A DNA stretch of 55,927 nucleotides from Desulfobulbaceae bacterium (GTDB lineage Bacteria; Desulfobacterota; Desulfobulbia; Desulfobulbales; Desulfobulbaceae). Shown piece by piece: positions 8,283 through 23,164 of the stretch; position 1 is the stretch's first letter, and every line of letters starts with the position of its first letter. The notes under the pieces are model-generated. The model was not told the DNA's origin and did not search any database. It worked only from the letters and a program-made list of their open reading frames with translations. The stretch is from positions 1 to 55,927 of the forward strand of contig JANTGH010000004.1 of NCBI GenBank assembly GCA_024763055.1. Reading direction: 5' to 3'. The translations under genes were made by a program, and so were the position numbers.

Positions 8283-8642
8283 ATGATAGTCAACACACAG
8301 ACAAGACCATATCGTTACCGGACCATGCCTGCAGGGTTTCGCAGGCGGCCATCTGCAAGCCGGACAAAAGAAATGTCTGTTGAGTTCCGGCGGTTCGTCT
8401 GCGTCATCCTCTGTGTGGCCTTTGTCCTGGTGCTTGGCTGCGGACAGATTTTTCATTGGACGATCGTGAAGAATTGTCAGAAAATTGACCAGTTGCAAAT
8501 GGTCTCTTCGGAGCTTGGCACTGAAAATATCAATCGGTTGGCTAAAAGAGCGCAGCTGATGTCTCCTAAACATGTCGAGGCTGTTGCCGCCGTACGATTC
8601 GACCTGCATGCACCGACCAAAGGTCAGGTTCATCACCTGTAA
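8283..8642 (+). CDS. ftsL: FtsL-like cell division protein
   Basis: A 119-aa bitopic membrane protein in the ftsL position. A basic cytoplasmic N-terminus (residues 1-35) precedes one transmembrane helix (about 38-58, CVILCVAFVLVLGCG). A short periplasmic region compatible with a coiled coil follows (KNCQKIDQLQMVSSELGTENINRLAKRAQ). FtsL joins FtsB and FtsQ to control the FtsW-FtsI synthase. Sequence identity within this family is always low, so the call rests on topology, length and synteny. AGAGGAGAGAG precedes the ATG, and the next gene starts within 10 bp. Confidence 0.75.
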   Translation: MIVNTQTRPYRYRTMPAGFRRRPSASRTKEMSVEFRRFVCVILCVAFVLVLGCGQIFHWTIVKNCQKIDQLQMVSSELGTENINRLAKRAQLMSPKHVEAVAAVRFDLHAPTKGQVHHL

Positions 8643-8651
8643 TTGTGGAGC

Positions 8652-10487
8652 ATGTATAAAACAACGCTCAAGTCACAAAAACGTAGAAAACACCGGTTCT
8701 ATGTAGCCGGAGTGTTACTGATTTTGCTGGCAGCGGCTGGCGGAGTTCTGTACCGATTACCCGTCCCCCTCCAGGATATCAGCAGGATTATACAGCTTGC
8801 TGTCGGCAAATTTTCCTTATTTCCAGCGGACGATGTGTCCGCTGGAAATGTTTTAAGGGGAACAATCTATGACCGCAATTTTAAGGAACTTGCAGTCTCC
8901 TACCAGTTGTTTTCGTTGTACGTTCATCCGGCAAAAATTGCAAACTACAGTGAAACCGCCGCCAGCCTGTCGGAAATAATTGCAATACCAAAACAGGCCA
9001 TAGAGGCCCGTCTTAAGGAATCCAAACGGGTGATTGAACTGGCAGATGATCTTGATTCTGCTCAAGTGCAAACTATAGAGCAGTTGCACCTTGATGGTGT
9101 TTACTGTAACAGCTCTGAGGTGCGGTTTTATCCGGAGCATACGGCGGCCGCCCAGATTATCGGGTATACCGGTGGAGGTGTAGGGCTTTCAGGGGAGGAA
9201 AGGCAATATGACCTCATGTTGCAACCCGGGGAATACAAGGCGGTCGATGTCCCGGAAGTGGATTTTAAGGATAATACGGTCCTGGGGCGGCAAGGCACGG
9301 ACCTGATCCTGACCCTGGATATGGAACTGCAGAAAAAGGTCGACGAGAAATTACAGCGTCTGCTGTATGACCAGGATGCGAGCATGGGTGCGGCCCTGTT
9401 ACTCGACCCGGTATCCGGCCGGGTGCTTGCGCTTTCCAGCCGGCCTTCCTTTAACCCGAATTATTTTTGGCAGGCAGACAATGCTACCCGGCAAAACAGA
9501 GTGTACAACAGGATTTTTGATATTGACCTCATCAGGCCCCTCCTGGTCCGCGCTGCAGCAAGGATAAACACGGGCCGGCAAACCGCTCCCCTGCTTCCGG
9601 TGACAATTGCCGCTAAAGATTTTGGCCTTACCCGGGAAACCTACGACGAGACAATAAACACTCTATGCTTGGCCCAACCGGTTCCTGAAGATTTTTCTTC
9701 CCAAGACAATCAGCAGGAAGGTTTACCCGGAGAGGACGGAGAGGAAAGGCTCAGCGTTATGCAGTTTGGTATCGGTATTGCCGGTCTGATGAATGGAGGC
9801 CGGTGCCTGTCCCCCCTTTTTCTGGATTCCATTTATGATGTGGGGAATAAACATCGATTTTCTCTTCGCGAGGAGGCAACGGCCAGTGTACATATTCTAT
9901 CACCGGCCATGGGAGTCCTTGTACGCAGGGAATTATCTTCGTATCTTGCCTCTTTGTCAAAAGATAAGACACTTTCCTATGCCGGGAGGAGTGCACGCGT
10001 TATTTTTGGCGAAAAAATCTCGAAATATGTGCAACAGCAGTTTTTTTTCGGCATGATCCCTAAAAAAAAGCCTGAAATGCTGCTCATTATGGCTATTGAC
10101 CAAGGTCACATCGGACCGGTGCGGAAAAGAAAAAAGCGAGGCAGTATGTACGGCGAGGGAAAATCTTTGCTGGCCGATCTGTATACTACCGCACGCCGAG
10201 AACAGGTGGTCGAACATCCGACAAAAAAAAATGATAAGAACCTGGCACAATTTCTTATCAGCCGACGGATTGATTACACTCCCTCTCCGGTCCGGAGGCC
10301 GGGAGATGCTATGGCAATGCCACGACTCATCGGGATGAGTTTAAGAAAAGGATTGCAACAGTTAAACAGGCAGAATCTGCGCATCACCATTCAGGGAAGT
10401 GGCCGGATAGTCGCTCAGTCACCGGATGCGGGGGAGCGGTTGGATAATGTAAAATCCTGTCGGCTCACTCTTGAATCGGAGATCTGA
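8652..10487 (+). CDS. ftsI: FtsI-like penicillin-binding protein lacking transpeptidase catalytic motifs, PASTA domain
   Basis: A 611-aa protein in the ftsI position. Visible: one transmembrane helix (about 17-37); pedestal domain with RGTIYDRN (69-76) and QIIGYTGG...GLSGEERQYD; then GTDLILTLDMELQ and GAALLLDPVSGRVLALSSRPSFNPN, all typical of class B PBPs; a C-terminal PASTA domain (about 557-611). The catalytic part is degenerate. Where active enzymes read NRxxxDxxEPGSTFK this reads NRVYNRIFDIDLIRP, so SxxK is LIRP (293-296). The AGKTGTAQ box reads AGRSARVI (444-451). No SxN is present and the domain is shortened. No frameshift or stop interrupts it, so it looks like a maintained pseudoenzyme. 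ATG 8652 is preferred; TTG 8643 is in frame. It probably cannot bind penicillin covalently or cross-link peptidoglycan. Confidence 0.85.
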   Translation: MYKTTLKSQKRRKHRFYVAGVLLILLAAAGGVLYRLPVPLQDISRIIQLAVGKFSLFPADDVSAGNVLRGTIYDRNFKELAVSYQLFSLYVHPAKIANYSETAASLSEIIAIPKQAIEARLKESKRVIELADDLDSAQVQTIEQLHLDGVYCNSSEVRFYPEHTAAAQIIGYTGGGVGLSGEERQYDLMLQPGEYKAVDVPEVDFKDNTVLGRQGTDLILTLDMELQKKVDEKLQRLLYDQDASMGAALLLDPVSGRVLALSSRPSFNPNYFWQADNATRQNRVYNRIFDIDLIRPLLVRAAARINTGRQTAPLLPVTIAAKDFGLTRETYDETINTLCLAQPVPEDFSSQDNQQEGLPGEDGEERLSVMQFGIGIAGLMNGGRCLSPLFLDSIYDVGNKHRFSLREEATASVHILSPAMGVLVRRELSSYLASLSKDKTLSYAGRSARVIFGEKISKYVQQQFFFGMIPKKKPEMLLIMAIDQGHIGPVRKRKKRGSMYGEGKSLLADLYTTARREQVVEHPTKKNDKNLAQFLISRRIDYTPSPVRRPGDAMAMPRLIGMSLRKGLQQLNRQNLRITIQGSGRIVAQSPDAGERLDNVKSCRLTLESEI

Positions 10488-10495
10488 TCCCCGAC

Positions 10496-13400
10496 ATGCG
10501 GCTTGCAGAACTGGCAAAGATCCTCGCTCTACCCCGGGTTGAAAAAGCTCTGTCAACGGCTGAACTTACTAAAATTACAGCCGATTCACGGCAGGTAGTT
10601 CCCGGGGCAGTTTTTGTAGCTGTCCGGGGAGCCGTGACCGATGGTCACAACTATATTGCAAAAGCTGTTGATAGAGGCTGCCTTGCAGTTGTTGCCGAGC
10701 ATTGTCCTGAGGTTATTCGCGGAAAGAGAATTCCATGTTTTCAGGTGCAAGACAGCCATGCAGCCCTTGGTCAATTAGCCGCAGCCTGGAACAATTATCC
10801 GGCCAAAAAACTGCGGTTGATGGGCCTGACCGGGACAAATGGCAAGACAACAGTTTCCTGGTTGCTTGAAAGCATCCTCCGGCAGGCAGGGTTCCATACC
10901 GGAGTTATCGGCACGGTGAATTATCGTTTTATGGATCGGGCGGAGAACATGATTGTCCGGCCGGCACCGTTGACCACCCCTGAACCCCTGCAGTTGCAGG
11001 CGTTGCTTCAAGAGATGGTAGAAGCCGGCGTCAGTCATGTGATTCTTGAGGCTTCTTCCCATGCCCTGGCACAGAAGCGCATGGCCGGAATAGCGTTTGA
11101 CGTGGCTGTTTTTACAAATCTAACCAGGGACCATCTGGATTATCACCAGGACATGGAAAGCTATTTTTCGGCAAAAAAACTGCTTTTTACAGAATATATG
11201 AAGTCTTCCGGCACGGCAGTGGTGGTTATGGACGGGATGTCCGACAAAGAGGATTATGGGCGCCGGCTTGCTGCAGAACTTTCCGGAGTCTCCGTCCTGA
11301 CGGTAGGCTTCGGTGAAGATTGTGCTATCAGGGCAAAGAAATGTACACAGGGTATTAATGGTATTTCCTGTGAATTTATATTTGGACAAAGAGTGCGTAA
11401 AATATCTTCCAATATGACAGGTAGTTATAATGTGTTAAACATGCTTGCCGCGGCAGGCGCAGCCCGGGGTCTGAATATCCCTGCCGAACAAATAGTTGCT
11501 GGTCTTTTGAGAGTGGGCCAGGTTCCGGGCAGGCTTGAACGGGTCACCCTGCCGGGATTACCGGAGAGGGAGATGCCGTCTGTTTTTGTTGATTATGCCC
11601 ATACTCCTGATGGCCTTGAAAAGGTTCTTTCCACCATGAAGACAATGACCAGGGGTCGATTGATTTGCATTTTCGGCTGTGGCGGAGATCGTGATGCGGG
11701 GAAACGAACGCTGATGGGCGAAGTTGCCGGTCGGCTTTGCGATGTTGTTATTCTTACTTCGGACAATCCGAGGACTGAAAACCCTATGGACATAATAGAG
11801 GAGACCTTGTGCGGTGTTCAGGAGGCAGGCATGGCCAAACGGTCTGTGGCTGAGTTGTTTGACATGGACGCTCCGTTAAACGGCTTTTCTGTGGAGTCGG
11901 ATCGGAAACGGGCCATTCATCTGGCCTGTAGCTTGAGTGACCGGGGAGATGTGGTGCTCATCGCCGGCAAAGGGCATGAACAGTATCAGATTATTGGTCG
12001 GGAGAAACAATTTTTTGACGATCGCATTGAAGCGCAGAACGGGCTTGCTGCCTGGACGGTTCAACATCTTGAGCAGGCACTCAACGCGCAATGTATCGGT
12101 GGAAAGAGAGCGCGACTGCTCGGCGAAATTTCAACGGATACCCGAACCCTGCGGCCCGGCGATGTGTTTGTTGCTCTCTGCGGGGAAAATTTTGACGGCC
12201 ATGGGTTTGTGCAACAGGCCGTCGATAAAGGTGCCGGTGCACTAATAGTTCAGGAGAAACCTGCCGGGAAATTACCCGGGGTGCCGGTTATTTTAGTGGA
12301 AGATACCCTGCAAGCCCTTGGTGATCTTGCGGCGTATCGCCGGCGGTTGTGGGACGGGGAAGTAAAAGTCATTGCCATTACCGGCAGTTCCGGAAAGACG
12401 ACGGTCAAGGAGATGACGGCCGCTATTTTTAAGCATTTTTACGCGGTTCCCGAACCGGCGCCAAATGCGGTTTTAAAAACAAAGGGCAACTTGAATAATC
12501 TGATCGGCCTTCCCCTGTCCCTGTTGCGGCTTACCGGCGAACATCGGGTTGCTGTTTTGGAAATGGGGATGAATCGGCCCGGTGAAATCGCTGGAATGAC
12601 CGAGATTGCTGACCCGGATATCGGCTGTATCAACAACATTCAGGCCGCCCATCTTGAAGGACTTGGTACCATTGAGGGGGTTGCAAAAGCCAAGGGCGAG
12701 TTGTTTGCCGGGTTGAAGGACGATGCCGTTTTTGTGGTCAACTATGATGATCCGCTGGTAGTTAAGCTTGCAGGAAAGTACCGGGGCGTCAAGATAGGAT
12801 ACGCCGTAACCTCCGCCGGCAGAAGACGTGGTCCTGTTGTCAGGGTTACACGAATTACCGGGCTTGGTGAGGCGGGAAGCCGTTTCACTCTTCGAATCGG
12901 CGACTGGCAGGAGCGGCTCCACCTGCCGGTGCCGGGAATTCATAATATCCACAATGCCGCGGCTGCCGCTGCCATCGCTCATGCCGCCGGTGTTGATACC
13001 CGGAGCATTGTCCAGGGGCTTGTCCATTTTCAGAATGTGGATAACAGGATGCAGTTTATGCAGGTTGGGGGCGGGCTGCGAGTGCTGAACGATTCATATA
13101 ATGCCAATCCCTCCTCTATGGCTGCTGCACTGCGGACTGTTGCAACCTTTACCCCGAAATATCGTCGGGTGGCGGCCCTTGGCGACATGCTCGAACTTGG
13201 TGAAAATGCTGCCGCCGCCCATCGAGAGGTGGGTCGACTGACGGCTTCTCTTGGCTATGACATGCTTGCGGTTACCGGGGAGTATCGGGCTCAAGTCATT
13301 GCCGGCGCGCGAGAAGGAGGGATGCCCGGGGAACGGGTGATGTCCTTTGTTGACACCATTGCCATGGCCGACTGGTTGTATCATCTTCTGATTACCGGGC

Positions 13401-13510
13401 GGTTGAGTGAAGATGACTGGCTGCTTGTCAAAGGTTCCAGGGGCATGCGGATGGAAAATCTGCTCGTTGAGCTGCAGAATCGTTTTGATCCTGCCCGGGC
13501 CGGGGGATAA
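10496..13510 (+). CDS. murEF: MurE-MurF fusion: UDP-MurNAc-tripeptide synthetase / UDP-MurNAc-pentapeptide synthetase
   Basis: A 1004-aa bifunctional cytoplasmic ligase. Residues 1-520 are MurE: TADSRQVVPGAVFVAVRG, ATP loop GLTGTNGKTT (110-119), EASSHAL, and DNPRTENP near 425, the DNPR motif linked to meso-diaminopimelate. Residues 525-1004 are MurF: STDTRTLRPGDVFVAL, ATP loop AITGSSGKTT (about 627-636), NLNNLIGLPLSLL, EMGMNRPGEI and NDSYNANPSSM. The join is in frame with no stop, so both steps that complete the pentapeptide precursor occur on one chain. MurE and MurF are usually separate neighbours; fusions occur in some lineages. It starts at ATG 10496, 8 bp after ftsI. Confidence 0.95.
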   Translation: MRLAELAKILALPRVEKALSTAELTKITADSRQVVPGAVFVAVRGAVTDGHNYIAKAVDRGCLAVVAEHCPEVIRGKRIPCFQVQDSHAALGQLAAAWNNYPAKKLRLMGLTGTNGKTTVSWLLESILRQAGFHTGVIGTVNYRFMDRAENMIVRPAPLTTPEPLQLQALLQEMVEAGVSHVILEASSHALAQKRMAGIAFDVAVFTNLTRDHLDYHQDMESYFSAKKLLFTEYMKSSGTAVVVMDGMSDKEDYGRRLAAELSGVSVLTVGFGEDCAIRAKKCTQGINGISCEFIFGQRVRKISSNMTGSYNVLNMLAAAGAARGLNIPAEQIVAGLLRVGQVPGRLERVTLPGLPEREMPSVFVDYAHTPDGLEKVLSTMKTMTRGRLICIFGCGGDRDAGKRTLMGEVAGRLCDVVILTSDNPRTENPMDIIEETLCGVQEAGMAKRSVAELFDMDAPLNGFSVESDRKRAIHLACSLSDRGDVVLIAGKGHEQYQIIGREKQFFDDRIEAQNGLAAWTVQHLEQALNAQCIGGKRARLLGEISTDTRTLRPGDVFVALCGENFDGHGFVQQAVDKGAGALIVQEKPAGKLPGVPVILVEDTLQALGDLAAYRRRLWDGEVKVIAITGSSGKTTVKEMTAAIFKHFYAVPEPAPNAVLKTKGNLNNLIGLPLSLLRLTGEHRVAVLEMGMNRPGEIAGMTEIADPDIGCINNIQAAHLEGLGTIEGVAKAKGELFAGLKDDAVFVVNYDDPLVVKLAGKYRGVKIGYAVTSAGRRRGPVVRVTRITGLGEAGSRFTLRIGDWQERLHLPVPGIHNIHNAAAAAAIAHAAGVDTRSIVQGLVHFQNVDNRMQFMQVGGGLRVLNDSYNANPSSMAAALRTVATFTPKYRRVAALGDMLELGENAAAAHREVGRLTASLGYDMLAVTGEYRAQVIAGAREGGMPGERVMSFVDTIAMADWLYHLLITGRLSEDDWLLVKGSRGMRMENLLVELQNRFDPARAGG

Positions 13511-13513
13511 TTA

Positions 13514-14593
13514 ATGCTCTATCATTTTCTCTATCCGCTCCATGCCGAGGTCAGCTGGCTCAACGTTTTTCGCTATATTACCTTTCGCACCATCGGCGCT
13601 GCGGTAACGGCATTTTTACTTTTTTGTATCTTCGGGCCGAAATTTATCCGTTGGCTGCAGGTTCGGCAGATCGGCCAGGTGGTGCGCAGTGATGGACCCG
13701 AGTCGCATCTCAGCAAGCAGGGTGTTCCAACTATGGGTGGAATGCTTATTATTGCCACCATGGTCACCTCCACCCTTCTCTGGGCTGATCCGGCCAGCGG
13801 CCTGGTCTGGCTGTTGATTGGCATTTGCCTGTTTTTCGGTGGGATTGGCACAATGGATGACCTGCAGAAGATAAACAGAGGAAACAGTAAAGGGGTATCG
13901 GCCCGCGGCAAGTTGCTGCTGCAGATGATCGGAGCTTCAATGGTCGGATTCTATCTCCTGCTGCATCCGGAATATGACGGCAATCTTGCCATACCGTTTT
14001 TCAAGGGATTCCATCCTGATCTTGGCTGGTGGTATGTTCCCTTTGCCGTTATCGTCATCGTCGGGGCCTCGAACGCGGTCAACCTGACCGATGGCCTGGA
14101 CGGACTGGCCGCAGGACCGGTGATGATCAGCGGCGGGGTCTACCTGATTTTTGCCTATGCCGCCGGTAATGCCATTGTCGCCCAGTACCTGCAGATACCC
14201 TTTGTTCAGGGTGCCGGTGAGGTGGCTGTTTTCTGCGGCACCATGGTGGGGGCCTGTCTCGGATTTCTCTGGTTCAACACCTATCCGGCGCAGATTTTCA
14301 TGGGTGATGTGGGGTCTCTGTCGCTTGGGGGAACTCTTGGCGCCGTGTCCATCATCATCAAGCAGGAGATCCTTCTTTCCATTGTCGGCGGTATTTTTAT
14401 GATGGAGGCCCTGTCCGTCATTCTGCAGGTCGGCTATTTTAAGATGTCCGGAGGCAAACGCATTTTTCTCATGGCGCCGATTCATCATCATTTTGAGAAA
14501 AAAGGCTGGCAGGAACCCAAGGTGGTTGTCAGATTCTGGATCATTTCCATTATTTTAGGTCTGCTGGCGCTTGCCACCTTGAAACTGCGCTGA
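13514..14593 (+). CDS. mraY: phospho-N-acetylmuramoyl-pentapeptide-transferase MraY
   Basis: A 359-aa polytopic membrane enzyme that transfers phospho-MurNAc-pentapeptide to undecaprenyl phosphate, forming lipid I. Signature elements: [11 protein letters not shown], the Asp-rich DDLQK site, [28 protein letters not shown] and [22 protein letters not shown]. About ten hydrophobic helices and the length are standard. Its ATG is 4 bp after murEF and its stop is 2 bp before murD, so translation is probably coupled. Confidence 0.97.
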
Positions 14594-14595
14594 TT

Positions 14596-15981
14596 ATGAA
14601 GCTTGTCAGAGGGAAAAGAGCGGTTGTACTTGGTCTTGGGGTTTCGGGGATGGCCGTGGTCAGGTATCTCCGGGAGCAGGGGCTTACGACGACAGTCTCG
14701 GAATATCGATTACGTAAAGATTTCAGTAAGGAAGAACTGGCACTGGTCGAGGGCCTTCAGCTTGAAACCGGGGGACACAGCGATGAATTTGTTCTTCGAA
14801 ACGATTACATTATTGCCAGCCCGGGAGTGCCCCTTGACCTGCCGGTACTGTGTAAGGCCCGTGAGCGCGGAATTCCCATTGTCGGGGAACTGGCCCTTGC
14901 CGCCGGAGAAATCCCGGTGCCGGTCATTGCGGTTACCGGATCAAATGGTAAAACCACTGTGACGGGTCTGATCGGGGAATTGCTGCGGGCGGGAGGATAT
15001 CAGCCCTTTGTCGGCGGAAATATCGGCACGCCGCTGCTTTCTTATCTGTTGTCGCCCAAGGGGTATGACGTGCTGGTGCTGGAGCTTTCCAGTTTTCAGT
15101 TGGATTTGTCAGGAGATTTCAGGCCGGATATCGCCCTGTTGCTGAATCTGTCACCGGATCATCTGGATCGCCATCAGAGCATGGAGGAATACACGAAGGC
15201 AAAATGCAGGATTTTTAGCAACCAGCAGAAGGGTGACCGGGCGATACTTGGCGCCGATGATCCGCTGGTTATGGCGCAGGCTGGAGAGATCAGGGCAGCT
15301 GTTTCAACCTTTGGCGACAACCGGAATGCGCAGGCCGGAGTTGTTGAAGACAGGGTGCACGTGAGCGTCGATGGCGGGCAAAGTTGTTTTGAGTTGCAGA
15401 AGACAGGCTTGAACTCCGGGGTCAATCGATTGAATGCGGCCGCGGCGATTTTGGCGGCAAAGCATTTTGGCGTAAGCGATGAAAGGATACGTCGCGGGCT
15501 CGCAGTGTATAGCGTTCCTGAGCATCGTATGACTCGGGTAGCTGAAATTGACGGTGTTTCATTTATTAATGATTCCAAGGCCACCAATGTCGGGGCAATG
15601 GCTGCGGCCATACAAAGTTGTCCTGCCGGGATGGTTCTGATCGCCGGAGGCCGTGATAAGGCAGGAGACTTTACAGGTTTAAGAGAACTTGTTGCCTCCA
15701 GGGTCGACCATATGCTGTGCCTCGGAGAGGCGGGGCCGCTTTTAATGAAAATTTTTGTGGATGTGGTCACGGTGGAGCAGGTGGAGGATATGCGGGCAGC
15801 GGTTGCACGGGCGGCCGTTCTGGCCGGGCCGGGGCAAACGGTTTTGCTTGCGCCGGGTTGCGCAAGTTTTGATATGTTTTCCGACTATGCCGAAAGAGGG
15901 CGGGTGTTCACTGCGTGTGTTCAGGCGCTTTTCAGTACAGGAGAGGAGAGAGACAATGACAAAGATATGTTGCGTCTGTAA
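14596..15981 (+). CDS. murD: UDP-N-acetylmuramoylalanine--D-glutamate ligase MurD
   Basis: A 461-aa cytoplasmic ligase adding D-glutamate to UDP-MurNAc-L-Ala. Features: N-terminal Rossmann GLGVSGMAVVRYL, ATP loop AVTGSNGKTTVTGL (near residue 116), LELSSFQLD, LNLSPDHLDRH, and C-terminal NDSKATNVGAM and LIAGGRDKAGDF. The end (LLAPGCASFDMFSDYAERGRVF) is the normal MurD terminus, plus a short extra tail overlapping the next small gene by 26 bp. FtsW would usually follow here; it does not. Confidence 0.96.
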   Translation: MKLVRGKRAVVLGLGVSGMAVVRYLREQGLTTTVSEYRLRKDFSKEELALVEGLQLETGGHSDEFVLRNDYIIASPGVPLDLPVLCKARERGIPIVGELALAAGEIPVPVIAVTGSNGKTTVTGLIGELLRAGGYQPFVGGNIGTPLLSYLLSPKGYDVLVLELSSFQLDLSGDFRPDIALLLNLSPDHLDRHQSMEEYTKAKCRIFSNQQKGDRAILGADDPLVMAQAGEIRAAVSTFGDNRNAQAGVVEDRVHVSVDGGQSCFELQKTGLNSGVNRLNAAAAILAAKHFGVSDERIRRGLAVYSVPEHRMTRVAEIDGVSFINDSKATNVGAMAAAIQSCPAGMVLIAGGRDKAGDFTGLRELVASRVDHMLCLGEAGPLLMKIFVDVVTVEQVEDMRAAVARAAVLAGPGQTVLLAPGCASFDMFSDYAERGRVFTACVQALFSTGEERDNDKDMLRL

Positions 15982-16177
15982 CCGGGTTGAACACGGAACC
16001 CACTGGAAAAATGATTATGTGTTTGGGGCCAATGAACGGGTGACCCACGGATACTGCCCTTTATGTTTTGACGTGATCATGGCGGAGCTTTTGGAATCAA
16101 GAGACGAACTGACAGCTGTGGATGAGAACGGCCAGGCCCGCAGTGCGAGGAACCGGCAGTCAGTCCTGTGCGCCTGA
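15956..16177 (+). CDS. 73-aa Cys-pair (zinc-ribbon-like) protein in the ftsW position
   Basis: A short protein starting at ATG 15956 behind GAGAGGAGAGAG, overlapping the murD end and, by 10 bp, the murG start. It has two Cys pairs, ICCVCNRV and THGYCPLCFDV, spaced like a zinc ribbon. The layout ICxxC...W...(S/T)HGxCPxC...EL matches the C-terminal domain of the response regulator at 29311-29913 (SICSECKKI...SHGLCPDCYQKRRKEL), a module common at the ends of deltaproteobacterial signalling proteins. A free-standing version inside the dcw cluster is unusual. Function unknown; it has no membrane segment, so it is not a remnant of FtsW. Confidence 0.7.
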   Translation: MTKICCVCNRVEHGTHWKNDYVFGANERVTHGYCPLCFDVIMAELLESRDELTAVDENGQARSARNRQSVLCA

Positions 16178-17250
16178 TAGTGACCGGCGGTGGCACCGGA
16201 GGCCATCTGTTCCCGGCCCTTGCCGTCGCCTGCGGGGTGCGGCGGCAAATTATTGGGAGTGAAGTTCTTTTTATCGGCACCGGTCGTCAGATCGATGCTC
16301 AGGCGCTGGCGGATTTTGATTTTTCCCGGAAGGTGATCAATTTTTCCGGGGTCAAGGGGTTAGGGATGTCCGGTCTGCTGCATGCCGCCTCCCGGTTTCC
16401 CCAGGCCTTGATCCAGTCCTTGCTGATTATAAGAAAGTTCCGGCCGGACCTGGTTTTTGGAGTCGGTGGGTACGTGACCGGTCCTGTTCTGCTTGCGGCA
16501 AAAATCCTGCGGGTGCCGATCTGTATTCATGAACAGAATTCCGTGCCCGGACTGGCAAACAGGCTTGCAGGCAGGCTTGCCGACGCGATCTGTATTTCAT
16601 TGCCGTGCAACCCGCCTTTTGTGAAAAAAAAAACGGTAATGACCGGCAACCCGGTACGGGAGGAAATTCTGGAGGCTGCGTCCCATCAAAAAGACGTATC
16701 CGATGATTTTGTTGTCACCCTGCTGGTGCTTGGCGGCAGCCAGGGGGCGCGCAGGGTCAATGCGTTAATTTTTGAGGCTGTGAAAATTCTGCGGGCAGAG
16801 GGCGCCGAGATACGAATCATTCATCAGACGGGAATAAATGATGAGGAGGCAATGCGGGCCGGATATGAAAAGATAGGTGTCCGTGCCGAGGTGGCGGCTT
16901 TTTTCGCAGATATGGCTGATCTGTACAATCGGGCTGATCTTGTCGTCTCAAGGGCCGGGGCAACGACACTGGCCGAACTTGCGGTCATGGGACTGCCGGC
17001 GGTTTTGATCCCCTTTCCCTATGCAGCTGATGATCATCAAACCACCAATGCCGGTTATTATGTGGAAGGCGGTGCAGCACGCATGCTGCAGGAAAGGAAG
17101 CTGAGCGGCCGGAAACTCGCTGGGGAAATTGACACCCTCTTGAAGGACCGGCCCGGCCTGCGGAAAATGGCGGGGGCAATGCGGAGCATGGGCAGGCCGG
17201 AGGCAACAAAACGTATCCTTGATGTATGCGCCCGACTGATAAAGAAATAA
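16168..17250 (+). CDS. murG: UDP-GlcNAc:undecaprenyl-PP-MurNAc-pentapeptide GlcNAc transferase MurG
   Basis: A 360-aa GT-B glycosyltransferase making lipid II on the inner face of the membrane. Motifs: IVTGGGTGGHLFPALAVA at the N-terminus, GVGGYVTGPVLLAA, HEQNSVPGLANRL, GGSQGARRVN, and the UDP-GlcNAc site SRAGATTLAELA...PFPYAADDHQTTNA. It starts at GTG 16168 inside the end of the small Cys-pair gene. An intact run of ten A near 16624 shows that long homopolymers in this window are read correctly. Confidence 0.97.
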   Translation: MRLIVTGGGTGGHLFPALAVACGVRRQIIGSEVLFIGTGRQIDAQALADFDFSRKVINFSGVKGLGMSGLLHAASRFPQALIQSLLIIRKFRPDLVFGVGGYVTGPVLLAAKILRVPICIHEQNSVPGLANRLAGRLADAICISLPCNPPFVKKKTVMTGNPVREEILEAASHQKDVSDDFVVTLLVLGGSQGARRVNALIFEAVKILRAEGAEIRIIHQTGINDEEAMRAGYEKIGVRAEVAAFFADMADLYNRADLVVSRAGATTLAELAVMGLPAVLIPFPYAADDHQTTNAGYYVEGGAARMLQERKLSGRKLAGEIDTLLKDRPGLRKMAGAMRSMGRPEATKRILDVCARLIKK

Positions 17251-17294: not shown

Positions 17295-18665
17295 ATGTAT
17301 AATAAAACAAAAAAAATACACTTTGTCGGGATCGGCGGCATAGGTATGTCCGGGATTGCCGAGCTGCTTTTGAATCTTGGTTATCAGGTCAGTGGTTCGG
17401 ATCTCAATGAGTCGGAGATTACCCGTAAACTGACAACGCTGGGTGGCATAATTCATGTCGGTCACAAGGGCCGGTGGGTTGAGGGGGCTGATGTGGTTGT
17501 GACCTCTTCAGCTATTAATCCGGAGAATCCGGAGGTCATGGCGGCCAAAGAGGCGCATATACCGGTCATTCAGCGGGCGGAAATGCTGGCTGAGCTCATG
17601 CGGCTGGCCAAGTACGGCATAGCAATAGCCGGCAGTCATGGCAAGACATCGACGACCTCGCTGGTTGCCAGCATCCTTGCTGAAGCACGTCTGGATCCGA
17701 CCGTGGTGGTCGGGGGCAAGGTGGACAGCCTTGGCGGCAACGCCAAACTTGGCTGTGGTGATTTCTTGGTGGCTGAGGCGGATGAGAGTGACGGCTCTTT
17801 TCTCAAACTTTCTCCGGTAATCGAGGTCGTGACCAATATTGACCTTGAACATCTGGATTATTACCGTGATCTTGACCATATTAAGGATGTATTTTCCAGG
17901 TTTATAGAGATCCTGCCCTTTTACGGGGTGGCCATTCTCTGTTTTGATGATGAAAATATTGCCCGCCTGCTGCCGAAGATTCAGCGGCGGGTGCTCACCT
18001 ACGGATTGAGCGAACAGGCTGATCTGTATGCCACCCGTATTGAGAGCCGGGGCCTGACCACCGAGTTTGCTGTTCGTTTTCGGGGGGAAGAACTGGGTAT
18101 CGTCAAAGTAAACCGACCCGGCAGGCATACGGTTTATAACGCTCTGGCAGCGATTGCCGTCGCCCTTGAGCTTGATATCGAGTTCAGTGTTATTACCAGG
18201 GCGCTGGCAAAGTTTGACGGGGTACAGCGCCGGCTGCAAATCAAGGGAGAACGAGCCGGAATCGTGGTTGTTGATGATTACGGCCATCATCCCACCGAAA
18301 TCAGAGCAACCCTTGATGCCGTCCGTGACGGTTGGCCTGACAAAAGGCTTGTGGTGGCCTTTCAGCCGCATCGTTTTACGCGGACAAAGGCATTGTTTGA
18401 CGAGTTCCAAACCGCCTTTCATCGGGCCGACGTGCTGGTGATGACCGATATTTATGCCGCCAGCGAACAGCCGATTGAGGGGGTTTCCAGCAAACATTTA
18501 TTAGCGGCGATTAAAGAGCATGGCCAGCGAAAGGTGCATTACGTGCCTGCTGTCGATGAGTTGCCAGAGATGTTAGGCGGCCTTCTTGAACAAGGAGACC
18601 TGTTGTTGACCCTTGGCGCCGGCAATATCGTCCGGGCCGGTGAGCGATTGCTGGAACTGTTGTAA
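17295..18665 (+). CDS. murC: UDP-N-acetylmuramate--L-alanine ligase MurC
   Basis: A 456-aa ligase adding the first L-alanine to UDP-MurNAc. Features: [25 protein letters not shown] loop [19 protein letters not shown] (near 113), [37 protein letters not shown] and [16 protein letters not shown]. All are intact and the length is standard. It starts at ATG 17295, 44 bp after murG. Confidence 0.97.
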
Positions 18666-18676
18666 AGGCATGGCCA

Positions 18677-19600
18677 ATGCTTGATTCCAGGCAACAGCAG
18701 GCACTCTCGGCCATGTTTGGTGCTGCCGTCGCTTTTGATGTCTCCACGGCGGATTTTTGTACCTTGAAGGCCGGAGGAAGGGCTGCAGCTTTTATCGAAA
18801 TAAGTGATCTGGATCAATTATCAGCCTTATTGGGATTCTGCCGGAAGGAGGGAGTTTGCCGGCGGGTTATCGGCCGGGGCTCAAATATTCTGGTAACCGA
18901 TGCCGGATTTTCTGGTGTCCTGGTTCGGCTGGCCGGTGAATTCAGGACTGTGCGGCAAAGAGATGAACCTGATTCCATAGTGATAACGGCGGGTAGTGGC
19001 TGTCTGCTGGCGGAATTGCTTGGCTATTGCCGGCGGCACGGTCTGGGCGGATTGGAATTCCTGGTTGGAATTCCCGGTGGCGTGGGCGGAGCTGTCCGAA
19101 TGAATGCCGGCGCCTTTGGCCATTGGCTTGGAGAACTGCTTGAGCGTGTGGTTATTGTCGGCCCGGATGGTGAGGCGCAGGAAAAAATGAGGGGAGAATG
19201 GAGCTGTGGTTACCGACGGTTTACAATTGATGGTTGCGATCTGGATAGTGTTATCATCCTTTCCGCCGATTTTGAATTGCAAAAAAACGACCCGGTGCTG
19301 ATTCAGCAAACCTTGGAGAAATACCGGTCACTGCGCAGGGAAAAGCAACCCCCGGCGCTCCCTTCGGCTGGTTCGTTTTTTAAAAATCCTGCCGGCGATT
19401 TTGCCGGCCGCCTGATTGAAGCCGGCGGCTTGAAAGGGTTTCGTGTCGGAGGAGCCATGGTCTCGCCGATACATGCAAATTTTATTATTAATACCGGTAC
19501 AGCCACGGCCACGGATATTATCAATCTGATGCACAGGATCCAGGAAAAAGTAGAAGCGGAAACAGGTATTTTTCTTGAGCCGGAAGTTCATATAATTTAA
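18677..19600 (+). CDS. murB: UDP-N-acetylenolpyruvoylglucosamine reductase MurB
   Basis: A 307-aa FAD enzyme producing UDP-MurNAc. FAD-domain motifs: LKAGGRAAAFIE, IGRGSNILVTDAGFSG, GLEFLVGIPGGVGGAVRMNAGAFG. The catalytic Ser lies in LPSAGSFFKNP and the final Glu in FLEPEVHII; this layout fits a type II MurB. It starts at ATG 18677, 11 bp after murC. Confidence 0.96.
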   Translation: MLDSRQQQALSAMFGAAVAFDVSTADFCTLKAGGRAAAFIEISDLDQLSALLGFCRKEGVCRRVIGRGSNILVTDAGFSGVLVRLAGEFRTVRQRDEPDSIVITAGSGCLLAELLGYCRRHGLGGLEFLVGIPGGVGGAVRMNAGAFGHWLGELLERVVIVGPDGEAQEKMRGEWSCGYRRFTIDGCDLDSVIILSADFELQKNDPVLIQQTLEKYRSLRREKQPPALPSAGSFFKNPAGDFAGRLIEAGGLKGFRVGGAMVSPIHANFIINTGTATATDIINLMHRIQEKVEAETGIFLEPEVHII

Positions 19601-19632: not shown

Positions 19633-20565
19633 ATGGCGGCATACACTCCAAAATATTCTAAGAAGCCTTCAAACAAAAAAGGACTTTTAGCTGCCATCCG
19701 TCGGAGGTTTCCCCGAATTCGGAAGAAAAAGGCGCTCAATGCCGGCAAGCCTCAGCTGGTTGGCGTCACCGGAAGACCCCTATCGCCGGGGCGCACTGGT
19801 TTCCGCGTTCGTCTGCTGCTGTTTGTCGTCCCGCTTGTTGTTGTTCTTGGCGGATGGCTTTCATATCAATGCCTTGTTCGTTCGGATATTTTTCGTCTGA
19901 CCGAAGTGTCAGTGACCGGTAACCGAAAAATCAGCCGGCGGCAGCTTATTGAAAAGACAGGTTTGACAAGAGGAACGAATCTTTTTGTCTTTGACGTAAA
20001 GGCAGCTGAAAAGAGGGCAGACGAGCTTGCCTGGGCGGATCAAGTTGATATCCATATTTTCTGGCCGTCCAGGGTCGTTGTTACTGTTCGAGAACGTCAA
20101 CCTCTGGCCCTGGTTAATCTTGCCGGGGATAAAGGGCGGCGGCTTTTTTATGTCGAAGGTGACGGTGCCGTTTTTTCTCCTGTTCAACCAGGACAGGATA
20201 ATGATTTTCCCGTTATTACCGGAGAATTGACCACTCTTGGTCTTGAAGGTGATCATATTTCGACCGGGACGATTGCGTCCAAGGCGCTGGAGTTTCTCCA
20301 TCTGGCCGCCCGGGGTAATGCCATACTTCCCGTGCAGGCGATTTCCGAGATCCATGTGAATGCGGATCTCGGACTCATTGTGTATCTCGTGGATCGCCCT
20401 TTTCCGATTTATGTGGGCACCAAACGGATACGCACAAAGTATTATCGATTGGTCAAGATCCTGGAACGGTTGTACAGAAAGAAAAAAATAGCGAAAATTA
20501 AAGAAATCCGAATGGATTATACGGAAAATAAAGTGCTGGTGGCAATGGTCAGCCCCGGCGGGTGA
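19633..20565 (+). CDS. ftsQ: cell division protein FtsQ
   Basis: A 310-aa bitopic protein: basic cytoplasmic N-terminus (1-55, rich in Lys/Arg), one transmembrane helix (about 58-78, VRLLLFVVPLVVVLGGWLSY), then a POTRA domain (FRLTEVSVTGNRKISRRQLIEKTGL) and the FtsQ beta domain (VTVRERQPLALVNL...YVEGDGAVF). It scaffolds FtsL and FtsB and relays signals to the septal synthase. It is normal here, although FtsI looks inactive. The stop is 6 bp before ftsA. Confidence 0.93.
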   Translation: MAAYTPKYSKKPSNKKGLLAAIRRRFPRIRKKKALNAGKPQLVGVTGRPLSPGRTGFRVRLLLFVVPLVVVLGGWLSYQCLVRSDIFRLTEVSVTGNRKISRRQLIEKTGLTRGTNLFVFDVKAAEKRADELAWADQVDIHIFWPSRVVVTVRERQPLALVNLAGDKGRRLFYVEGDGAVFSPVQPGQDNDFPVITGELTTLGLEGDHISTGTIASKALEFLHLAARGNAILPVQAISEIHVNADLGLIVYLVDRPFPIYVGTKRIRTKYYRLVKILERLYRKKKIAKIKEIRMDYTENKVLVAMVSPGG

Positions 20566-20571
20566 TGGTCG

Positions 20572-21795
20572 ATGGAAGAGAATGAACCACAGGAGTCCGG
20601 TGCGCTTGTTGCCGGTCTTGACATAGGAACAACGAAAATCTGCGCGGTTATTGGTGAAGTTTTTGATGACCGGGTCGATGTCATCGGTGTCGGCACCGCC
20701 GCTTCCTCCGGGATGAAGAAAGGTGTGGTTGTCAACATCGAGGCCACGGTCAAGGCCATTCATGAGGCCGTGGATGCGGCCTCAGACATGGCCGGCTGCG
20801 ATATTGAAACCGTTTTTGTCGGTATTGCCGGCAACCATATCAAGAGTTTTAATTCGCCCGGTATCCTGGCTATCAATAATCAGGAAATTAGAGAAAAGCA
20901 TATTGAAGAGGTTATCCGGGCGGCCCAGACCGTGAAGATTTCCGATAATCAGCAAATTATTCACGTGCTGCCTCAGGAATACATGGTGGACGATCATACC
21001 GGCATCCAGAATCCGCTCGGCATGACCGGAGTACGGCTGGTTACCAATGTTCACATCGTCACCGCGGACAATACCTCGTTGCATAATCTGGTGACAAGCT
21101 GCAACCGGGCCGGTCTTGCCGTTTCAGAGATAGTTCTTGAGTCGGTGGCTTCATCGTGCACGGTGCTGAACAGGGATGAGATGGAACTCGGAGTGACACT
21201 GCTTGATATCGGAGGCGGAACCACTGACCTGGCAATTTTTTGTAATGGAACCATCAAACATACCTGGGAGTTGGCCCTTGGCGGCAACAATTTGACCAAT
21301 GATCTTTCCGTGGGACTGCGTACGCCTCTGCAGGAGGCCGAGGAGTTAAAGTATCTTTACGGCGGCGCGCTTTCTTCCATGATTAAGGATAACCTGATAA
21401 TTGAGGTTCCCACAGTCGGTGACCGCAAGCCCCGGAAGGTTTCCCAGCGGGTTATGGTGGAGATACTTGAGGCAAGGATTGAAGAAGTTCTACAGATGGT
21501 GAATGCCAATATCTGCAGCTCCGGTTATCGGAATCGGATCAATGCCGGCATGGTTCTGACCGGGGGAACATCGCTGCTGGCAAATATCGTTGAAATGGCG
21601 GAACAGATTTTTGACATGCCGGTCCGGATGGCCTGTCCCACGGGTATCGGCGGCCGGGTGGAAGATGTTCGCTCGCCACGTTGCACTACAGCAGTCGGGC
21701 TGGTACTCTATGGAAGCCAGGCTTTACATGCCGGTCCCCGGGAAACCGGCGGTATGGTGACCAGGCTGAAGAGCTGGGTAAAAAATATTGTCTGA
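20572..21795 (+). CDS. ftsA: cell division protein FtsA
   Basis: A 407-aa actin-like ATPase that anchors FtsZ to the membrane. Visible: VAGLDIGTTKICAVIGEV (phosphate 1), the 1C domain with VFVGIAGNHIKSFNSPGI, LDIGGGTTDLAIF (phosphate 2), AGMVLTGGTSLLANIVEMAE, and the C-terminal amphipathic membrane-targeting helix TRLKSWVKNIV. All standard elements are present. Confidence 0.97.
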   Translation: MEENEPQESGALVAGLDIGTTKICAVIGEVFDDRVDVIGVGTAASSGMKKGVVVNIEATVKAIHEAVDAASDMAGCDIETVFVGIAGNHIKSFNSPGILAINNQEIREKHIEEVIRAAQTVKISDNQQIIHVLPQEYMVDDHTGIQNPLGMTGVRLVTNVHIVTADNTSLHNLVTSCNRAGLAVSEIVLESVASSCTVLNRDEMELGVTLLDIGGGTTDLAIFCNGTIKHTWELALGGNNLTNDLSVGLRTPLQEAEELKYLYGGALSSMIKDNLIIEVPTVGDRKPRKVSQRVMVEILEARIEEVLQMVNANICSSGYRNRINAGMVLTGGTSLLANIVEMAEQIFDMPVRMACPTGIGGRVEDVRSPRCTTAVGLVLYGSQALHAGPRETGGMVTRLKSWVKNIV

Positions 21796-21973
21796 AAAGG
21801 GGAAAAGACTTTAGTCCGGAGCTGGTTAATGGTATAGATTGACCTGATTGCATTGCAGTGTCCGATGCGTTTCCGCTGCCGGTTCCGGTGTTTGATCGTT
21901 GAGGTGGAGTTTCAGTATGTTGTACGGATGAAGACGGTTTGTTTGGTGATCATTCTTGTCAGTGAGGGAAGCC

Positions 21974-23164
21974 ATGTCGTTTAGAGTCGCGGAAGAAGAA
22001 TCTGTAGCAGCCATTAAGGTTATCGGGGTTGGTGGAGGAGGGGGTAATGCTATCAATACCATGGTGTTGAACAGGTTGTCCGGGGTTGAGTTTATTGTGG
22101 CCAATACCGATGTGCAGGCCCTGGAGAAGTCCCGGGCTGATGTTCGCCTGCAGCTTGGACCCGGTATTGCCAAGGGCATGGGAGCCGGGGCCGACCCTGA
22201 AGTAGGCCGTGAATCCGCCCAGGAAAGCTACGATGAATTGAAAAGTACCCTGCAGGGCGCGGATATGGTCTTTGTCACCGCTGGTCTTGGAGGCGGTACC
22301 GGCACCGGCGCCGCGCCGGTGATAGCAAAACTCTGTAAGGAAGCCGGCGCTCTGACCGTTGCCGTTGTCACCAAACCGTTTTACTTTGAAGCAAAAAAAC
22401 GGATGCGCAATGCCGAAGCGGGATGGGAGGAACTCAAGGAATATGCCGACACCATTATTACCGTACCCAATGATCGCCTTCTTTCATTAATGCAGAAAAA
22501 TTCAACCCTGGTGGATATGATGCAGAAGGTTGACTATGTACTTCTGCAGGCGGTAAAGGGAATAACCGATCTAATCAATCTCCCCGGTCATATCAATGTC
22601 GATTTCGCCGACCTGCGTACCGTTATGAAAGAGGTGGGACCGGCCATCATGGGTACCGGGGCTGCCGTCGGCGAAAACCGGGCCAGCGAAGCGGCCAAGA
22701 GGGCAATTGATAACCAGTTGCTTGAAGATGTCGGTATTGATGGCGCCCGGGGTGTGCTGGTCAATATTTCGGCCACGGAAAACACCCTGACGCTGGCCGA
22801 ATTTATGGAGGCCTCGGCCCTTATTCAGGAAAAAGCTCACGATGATGCCAATGTTATCATCGGCGCATTGTTTGACGAATCCTGCGGTGAAGAGCTTCAG
22901 GTTACGGTCATTGCCACCGGTATTGATTCTATTGACGAATCAGAGACCATCTCCCAGATAGAGCTGGTCAAGGGTCAGGACGCTGCCCCTGCTTCCTCCA
23001 CGCATCGGGATCTCGAAGAAACATCTCGGGAGGAGCGGCCGGTCAGTATCGCTAAACCGAACAAGACACCGGCAGGGCTTTCCAGACTCCCTTTTCCGGT
23101 CTTTGATGATCATGAGCTTGAGGATTATGATGAGCCGGCCTATCTGAGGAAAAAAGCCAATTAG
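21974..23164 (+). CDS. ftsZ: cell division protein FtsZ
   Basis: A 396-aa tubulin-like GTPase. [15 protein letters not shown], the tubulin signature [10 protein letters not shown] (near 106), the T7 loop [11 protein letters not shown], and the C-terminal conserved peptide [12 protein letters not shown], which binds FtsA, are intact. The start at ATG 21974 follows GTGAGGGAA; the frame opens at 21956 but that lacks a good ribosome site. A 178-bp gap separates it from ftsA and could hold a separate promoter, though no clear hexamers are seen. Confidence 0.97.

Follow-up and report, generated by a model that had tools for sequence, protein, structure and literature searches.

The window, the 55,927-nucleotide stretch of Desulfobulbaceae DNA that was analysed, carries a dcw cluster in the order mraZ, rsmH, ftsL-like ORF, ftsI, murE-murF fusion, mraY, murD, murG, murC, murB, ftsQ, ftsA and ftsZ. 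The part of the cluster considered here comprises the following features (G, L and f numbers below are our handles for genomes, loci and families).

8283..8642, + strand: ftsL-like small ORF between rsmH and ftsI, assigned by position; 9 of the 10 named relatives that were mapped have a similar ORF
8652..10487, + strand: ftsI, 611 aa, a class B PBP that lacks the active-site motifs (frame, Pfam, alignment and structure model)
10496..13510, + strand: murE-murF fusion, 1004 aa; its halves match MurE and MurF, which other clusters encode in separate frames
13514..14593, + strand: mraY
14596..15981, + strand: murD
15982..16167, + strand: murD-murG junction, ftsW absent; the site of ftsW in relatives with an active FtsI
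16168..17250, + strand: murG
17295..18665, + strand: murC
18677..19600, + strand: murB
19633..20565, + strand: ftsQ, from position and a weak NCBIfam match (E 1.9e-6, below the cut-off)
20572..21795, + strand: ftsA
21956..23164, + strand: ftsZ, an ORF named by its place after ftsA and by sequence similarity, without a library scan

The name ftsL is merely inferred, since the ORF has no NCBIfam match. Frames as long as the fused murE-murF recur elsewhere in the family, in f12 and at L309, and were absent from the mapped f3, f5, f6 and f15 clusters.

The ftsI open frame (8643/8652-10487) contains no internal stops and encodes 611 aa when counted from the ATG. Its parts are as follows.

8697..8753, + strand: N-terminal membrane anchor, residues 16-34, a hydrophobic stretch within model helix H7-35
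8850..9371, + strand: pedestal (PBP dimerisation) domain, residues 67-240 (Pfam PBP_dimer at 67-176, E 3e-16)
8856-8879, + strand: RGTIYDRN, in the pedestal
9384..10103, + strand: transpeptidase-like domain without active-site motifs, residues 245-484 (alignment; PBP3/FtsI fold)
9513..9545, + strand: lost SxxK site, IFDIDLIRPLL against FEPGSTFK (alignment with intact FtsIs)
9981..9998, + strand: lost KTG site, AGRSAR against AGKTGT (alignment with intact FtsIs)
10314..10445, + strand: C-terminal PASTA domain, residues 555-598 (Pfam)

The protein meets the criteria for FtsI in its dcw site between ftsL (named by position) and murE, its single N-terminal anchor and its pedestal, positions of which are conserved both in the class and in the outgroup (genomes of the phylum outside the class). 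It fails them in lacking the SxxK, SxN and KTG motifs and, within its genome, the cognate SEDS partner FtsW. Alignment with 76 intact outgroup FtsIs placed L, P, P, T, R, a gap and S at the motif positions S, K, S, N, K, T and G, the placement of single columns being approximate; the residues LIRP lie at 9528-9539. The Pfam transpeptidase model scored 26.6 bits, above the cut-off of 22.1, with the match split into two stretches, the best of which spans only model positions 1-37 of 299. The PASTA match (30.7 bits against a curated cut-off of 23.2) satisfies the criterion for a PASTA-domain protein, and the PASTA motif MPxxxGxSLR is strongly conserved across class FtsIs. No NCBIfam family cut-off was reached by the window FtsI or by three relatives. 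The original prediction, made from the sequence alone, had described lost motifs (LIRP, AGRSAR and no SxN), a shortened domain, a 611-aa frame without stop or shift, and a conserved anchor, pedestal and PASTA domain. Each of these claims held: LIRP and AGRSAR lie where it had placed them, SxN is absent, the transpeptidase-like part has a class median of 248.5 residues where intact FtsIs have 290 in identical columns, and the retained domains were supported by Pfam, alignment and model.

Profile searches recovered FtsI from 143 of the 144 class genomes, a sample of 55 genera in a single order, each genome being 90% or more complete; draft assemblies underlie much of the analysis. Comparison of the last 300 residues reduced the 182 class loci examined to 148 distinct sequences, and 12 of the 143 matched genomes fell outside the full motif readout. 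In the aligned columns, SxxK was found in none of the 148 distinct FtsIs and KTG likewise in none, and a cruder pattern scan returned merely stray motif matches elsewhere in the proteins. Excluded from the motif counts were five outgroup PBP2 matches (L250, L251, L254, L256 and L258), L259 (a PBP2 whose genome gave no profile match), L283 (an FtsI divided between two frames), L323 (a partial sequence from G028) and the duplicate dcw copies L308-L322 and L327. Named members with a dead FtsI include Candidatus Electrothrix and Electronema (cable bacteria), Candidatus Desulfobulbus rimicarensis and the isolate Desulfogranum mediterraneum DSM 13871; these names point to the Desulfobulbaceae, a family assigned to the class Desulfobulbia (PMC7873302).

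SxN was retained in 4 of the 148 sequences (L038, L138, L145 and L163), all from families other than the window's; in these it stands at the aligned place despite the loss of SxxK and KTG. The ftsI frame is long and open in most class genomes. At L032 (G012, a one-contig genome) it lies in two pieces, perhaps through sequencing error.

The dN/dS of FtsI ranged from 0.135 to 0.215 in seven genome pairs, indicating purifying selection on the dead protein. These values are simple Nei-Gojobori counts with approximate domain limits, and one pair entered twice, under different locus names. For neighbouring genes, covered in some of the pairs, the range was 0.04-0.35. The transpeptidase-like part showed no consistent relaxation across the seven pairs (0.089-0.228); in one of them it evolved faster than the pedestal (0.228 versus 0.077). 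Local decay of one gene is ruled out by the long frames, the class-wide state and the dN/dS.

An AlphaFold2 model of FtsI built with 24 sequences (mean pLDDT 77.4, pTM 0.70) predicts a class B PBP. Foldseek searches with the model returned class B PBP structures at E 1e-28 to 1e-24 (rows shown) with a TM of about 0.5, and VIA-align superposed it on class B PBPs with Z of 28-31 and an rmsd mostly of 3-5 Å. The alignment to SpoVD gave Z 30.6 (403 residues aligned, 4.5 Å), and that of model residues 8-517 to the FtsI chain of the solved FtsWIQBL core gave Z 28.3 (431 aligned, 8.8 Å). Residues conserved class-wide are R69, D74, R158, Y160, P161, G171, G181 and E183 in the pedestal and G256, P265, P269, N270, L379, N381, G383, P388, P470 and P474 in the transpeptidase-like part. 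Among the columns filled by the window protein over residues 245-484, no S, T, C, K, H, D or E reaches 85% conservation in the class, and what is conserved there is G, P, N or L. An alternative nucleophile was considered and rejected, there being no conserved candidate in the class alignment.

The partner polymerase is missing as well. Six clusters with an intact FtsI have the order murD-ftsW-murG. Of the 18 class clusters mapped, 15 have murD and murG with no ftsW in between and three stop short of that region; ftsW is likewise lacking there in three outgroup clusters with a dead FtsI. A Pfam SEDS match was obtained in 141 of the 144 class genomes, none of which contains two complete SEDS proteins, and no FtsW was found outside dcw either. 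G001 has one complete protein and one fragment, G014 has two fragments, and G037, G091 and G149 gave no match. The sole SEDS match of the window genome adjoins mrdA (PBP2) and mreD and is identified as RodA on account of these neighbours. At 29 of 30 SEDS loci from the window genome and its relatives the adjoining PBP2 frame carries SxxK and KTG; the thirtieth is cut by a contig end.

The absence of ftsW from four Desulfobulbaceae genomes has already been published, together with a model of cable-bacteria division in which FtsI is a recruited divisome protein (PMC7873302). The relevant passages of that paper do not mention lost FtsI motifs, and no report of a pseudoenzyme FtsI in this class was found in the open-access literature searched (titles and starts of abstracts, most subscription journals being outside the scope). 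Within those limits, the absence of ftsW is known for four genomes and the dead FtsI appears to be unreported.

We sought the same state elsewhere in the phylum. Among 93 genomes outside the class, SEDS proteins number two in 72, three in one and one in 20. Matches to the FtsI profile were obtained in 87 of the 93, and all 87 were retrieved; five proved to be PBP2, leaving 82 FtsIs. Of these, 77 carry SxxK, 76 of them with the full set of motifs and the other divided between two frames; the remaining five are dead. In the motif alignment, 76 of 81 outgroup FtsIs have all three motifs and the remaining five have none. The five dead proteins (G162, G190, G215, G223 and G243) represent three families, and each genome has a single SEDS adjoining PBP2. 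Conversely, 72 of the 77 genomes with an SxxK-bearing FtsI have two or more SEDS proteins. In G163, G164, G167 and G204 the single SEDS lies within 8 kb of the SxxK-bearing FtsI, and in G163 it was mapped as ftsW in dcw; G202 also combines such an FtsI with a single SEDS, the place of which is unlisted. Loss of FtsW thus accompanied FtsI inactivation wherever both could be judged.

No FtsI was recognised in 10 of the 20 single-SEDS outgroup genomes (G171, G199, G222, G242, G168, G196, G172, G200, G219 and G239), leaving aside unread weak second matches in two of them (G196 and G200). These ten could conceivably show where the same course of loss ends. A PBP2-grade transpeptidase match at E 1e-61 or better was returned by each of the 15 single-SEDS outgroup genomes searched.

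In trees of dcw proteins, the dead groups f58 and f64 adjoin the class and f26 stands separately, among lineages with an intact FtsI. Forcing all dead groups together was disfavoured by AU tests with six proteins (p 0.030) and with ten (p 0.0096), which argues against a single shared origin of all dead FtsIs. The AU test rows are not independent of the first tree, and the ten-protein set omits three rows of the six-protein set (f27, one f12 and one f1). Two separate losses in the phylum are therefore likely; they are not proven, because long branches (f43, f24 and f27) remain in the tree sets.

Which wall synthases remain? No third class B PBP was found in the class genomes: two pedestal matches, which we take to be FtsI and PBP2, were present in 139 of 144, the exceptions being G012, where the FtsI frame is split, with three, and G037, G091, G028 and G149 with one each. 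GT51 domains occur in 143 of the 144 class genomes, with two or more in 142, and the window genome encodes three class A PBPs with SxxK and KTG. Of the criteria for an FtsWI-independent divisome driven by a class A PBP, those that can be read from sequence (no FtsW, no active FtsI and a class A PBP present) are satisfied; that a class A PBP makes the septal wall would be an inference. One class A PBP frame, L040 1995-5420, encodes 1141 aa with a long insert in the transpeptidase domain, and frames of similar size occur in relatives.

Two genomes bear on the choice between these enzymes. G037, from the window's family (99% complete; L116, L339 and L345), has a dead FtsI and three GT51 matches; SEDS, PBP2 and MreB were not found in it. 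Of its two class A PBPs examined by pattern among the three, one has SxxK and KTG and the second has no KTG match. Its septum could hardly be built by anything but class A PBPs, provided that the draft is as complete as stated. G091 (L131; 2.0 Mb, 90% complete) retains a dead FtsI, an ftsL-like ORF and the start of a frame resembling murE, and SEDS, PBP2, GT51 and MreB were all not found there. Unless its assembly is incomplete, G091 fits neither a class A PBP nor a RodA-PBP2 reading, and, if the 90% completeness is not to blame, its dead FtsI needs no class A PBP.

On this sequence evidence the septal synthase pair FtsW-FtsI is gone as an enzyme in the class. With one septal wall enzyme missing and the other without an active site, the class probably divides by a different route. 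We consider it likely that FtsI is a non-catalytic divisome scaffold and that class A PBPs make the septal wall; both the scaffold role and the identity of the synthase are inferred. FtsI would be a purely structural member of the divisome, retaining its anchor, pedestal, predicted transpeptidase-like fold and PASTA domain. Its anchor and pedestal would dock on FtsL and FtsQ, its PASTA and transpeptidase-like surfaces may bind other divisome or wall components, and it would recruit or gate another synthase at the Z ring. That synthase would most likely be a class A PBP, which polymerises and cross-links, while RodA-PBP2 would retain elongation and may help at the septum. The gene content of G037 and the precedent of Clostridioides difficile make class A PBPs the first choice. 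The scaffold itself may be dispensable in some single-SEDS lineages, given that half of such outgroup genomes have no recognised FtsI.

The original prediction had proposed a pseudoenzyme kept by selection, acting as a scaffold contacted by FtsL and FtsQ with cross-linking supplied elsewhere. The pseudoenzyme is supported by the 148 class sequences, in the absence of activity or penicillin-binding data, and selection on the protein by the dN/dS of the seven pairs; the scaffold is consistent with our results and likely, and remains an inference. The checks it had suggested showed that the motif loss is class-wide, that no extra FtsI with intact motifs was found beside FtsI and PBP2, and that an FtsI/PBP3 fold is predicted. 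Intact relatives with neutral decay of this copy, or a sequence error, would have refuted it; the class-wide loss, independent assemblies and dN/dS oppose both. It had considered lost cross-linking only, and the loss of FtsW went unremarked.

The most serious rival is that RodA-PBP2, the sole remaining pair of a SEDS protein and a class B PBP, performs both elongation and septation, with dead FtsI linking the pair to the Z ring. This is possible: SEDS is kept in 141 of the 144 class genomes, PBP2 is intact where read (SxxK and KTG at 29 of the 30 SEDS loci), and a PBP2-grade match was obtained in all 15 single-SEDS outgroup genomes searched, so that RodA-PBP2 could serve the septum and its retention counts against the scaffold and class A reading. 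Against it, G037 combines a dead FtsI and three GT51 matches with no RodA, PBP2 or MreB found, and RodA-PBP2 of C. difficile is read as specialised for elongation, although the authors of that study leave room for it to act in both (PMC10693644). We infer that septation by RodA-PBP2 is less likely than by class A PBPs, and it is not excluded.

The remaining alternatives are weaker. Dead FtsI might act as a brake or timer, a negative regulator of the new septal synthase rather than its activator or recruiter. The repression of PBP1b polymerase activity by E. coli FtsBLQ (PMC6325244) speaks for such a role, but the non-catalytic class B PBP of C. difficile promotes septation (PMC12539705), and we consider a brake unlikely. 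That the transpeptidase-like domain is still an enzyme through other residues would agree with its maintenance under purifying selection; it is very unlikely, as no potentially catalytic residue type of those listed above reaches 85% conservation in the columns filled by the window protein. Finally, the split frame of G012 might suggest a decaying remnant or a sequencing artefact, a reading all but excluded by the long frames in most genomes, by the occurrence of the dead protein in independent assemblies as well as an isolate, and by the dN/dS.

The preferred reading, a scaffold FtsI with class A PBPs as septal synthase, can be set against known systems. The protein resembles FtsI/PBP3 of the FtsWI synthase in locus, anchor, pedestal and predicted fold, and most outgroup FtsIs likewise align with it in a PASTA-like C-terminus; it differs in the missing SxxK, SxN and KTG, the missing FtsW partner and the shortened domain. 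The FtsW-FtsI pair has been regarded as universally required for making the septal wall, with C. difficile, which divides with a class A PBP, as the worked-out exception (PMC10693644). There PBP1 is the septal synthase, and PBP3 binds PBP1 and promotes septation non-catalytically (PMC12539705). Both divisomes are without a canonical FtsW/FtsI enzyme pair (PMC10693644, PMC12539705), both retain class A PBPs and RodA-PBP2, and a non-catalytic role of a class B PBP, proposed here, is common to them. However, the dcw pair of C. difficile is SpoVE-SpoVD, which serves sporulation, whereas here an FtsI dead by sequence occupies dcw; its PBP3, also of class B, can perform the helper role without catalytic activity; and it has no FtsA, which is present in the window's cluster. 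That division class B PBPs have a structural role independent of catalysis is also known from Bacillus subtilis, in which inactive PBP2B (S309A) supports division (PMC5656894), and from Staphylococcus aureus PBP1, for which inactive mutants are reported (PMC9426605). Those are laboratory mutants, in contrast to the natural, class-wide state described here, and B. subtilis has a back-up transpeptidase, PBP3. Both B. subtilis and S. aureus have FtsW.

A bolder reading, which we judge as apt to prove right as wrong, is that a whole Gram-negative class including the cable bacteria divides without FtsW-FtsI enzymes, that this loss arose at least twice, each time as a package (ftsW gone, FtsI catalysis gone, FtsI protein kept in place), and that class A PBPs are the septal synthase. 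If true, the repeated loss would show that FtsI has a catalysis-independent divisome function, under selection strong enough to last over the age of a bacterial class. The apparent loss of the enzyme pair from the class amounts to a natural separation-of-function experiment in which selection kept what FtsI does besides catalysis, and surfaces conserved in the dead protein should mark where FtsI makes its non-catalytic contacts. The group affected is a large set of sulfur-cycling bacteria, among them the electricity-conducting cable bacteria. As the relevant passages of the published model of cable-bacteria division (PMC7873302) do not mention the missing active site of FtsI, both that model and the expected beta-lactam targets of the class need a second look.
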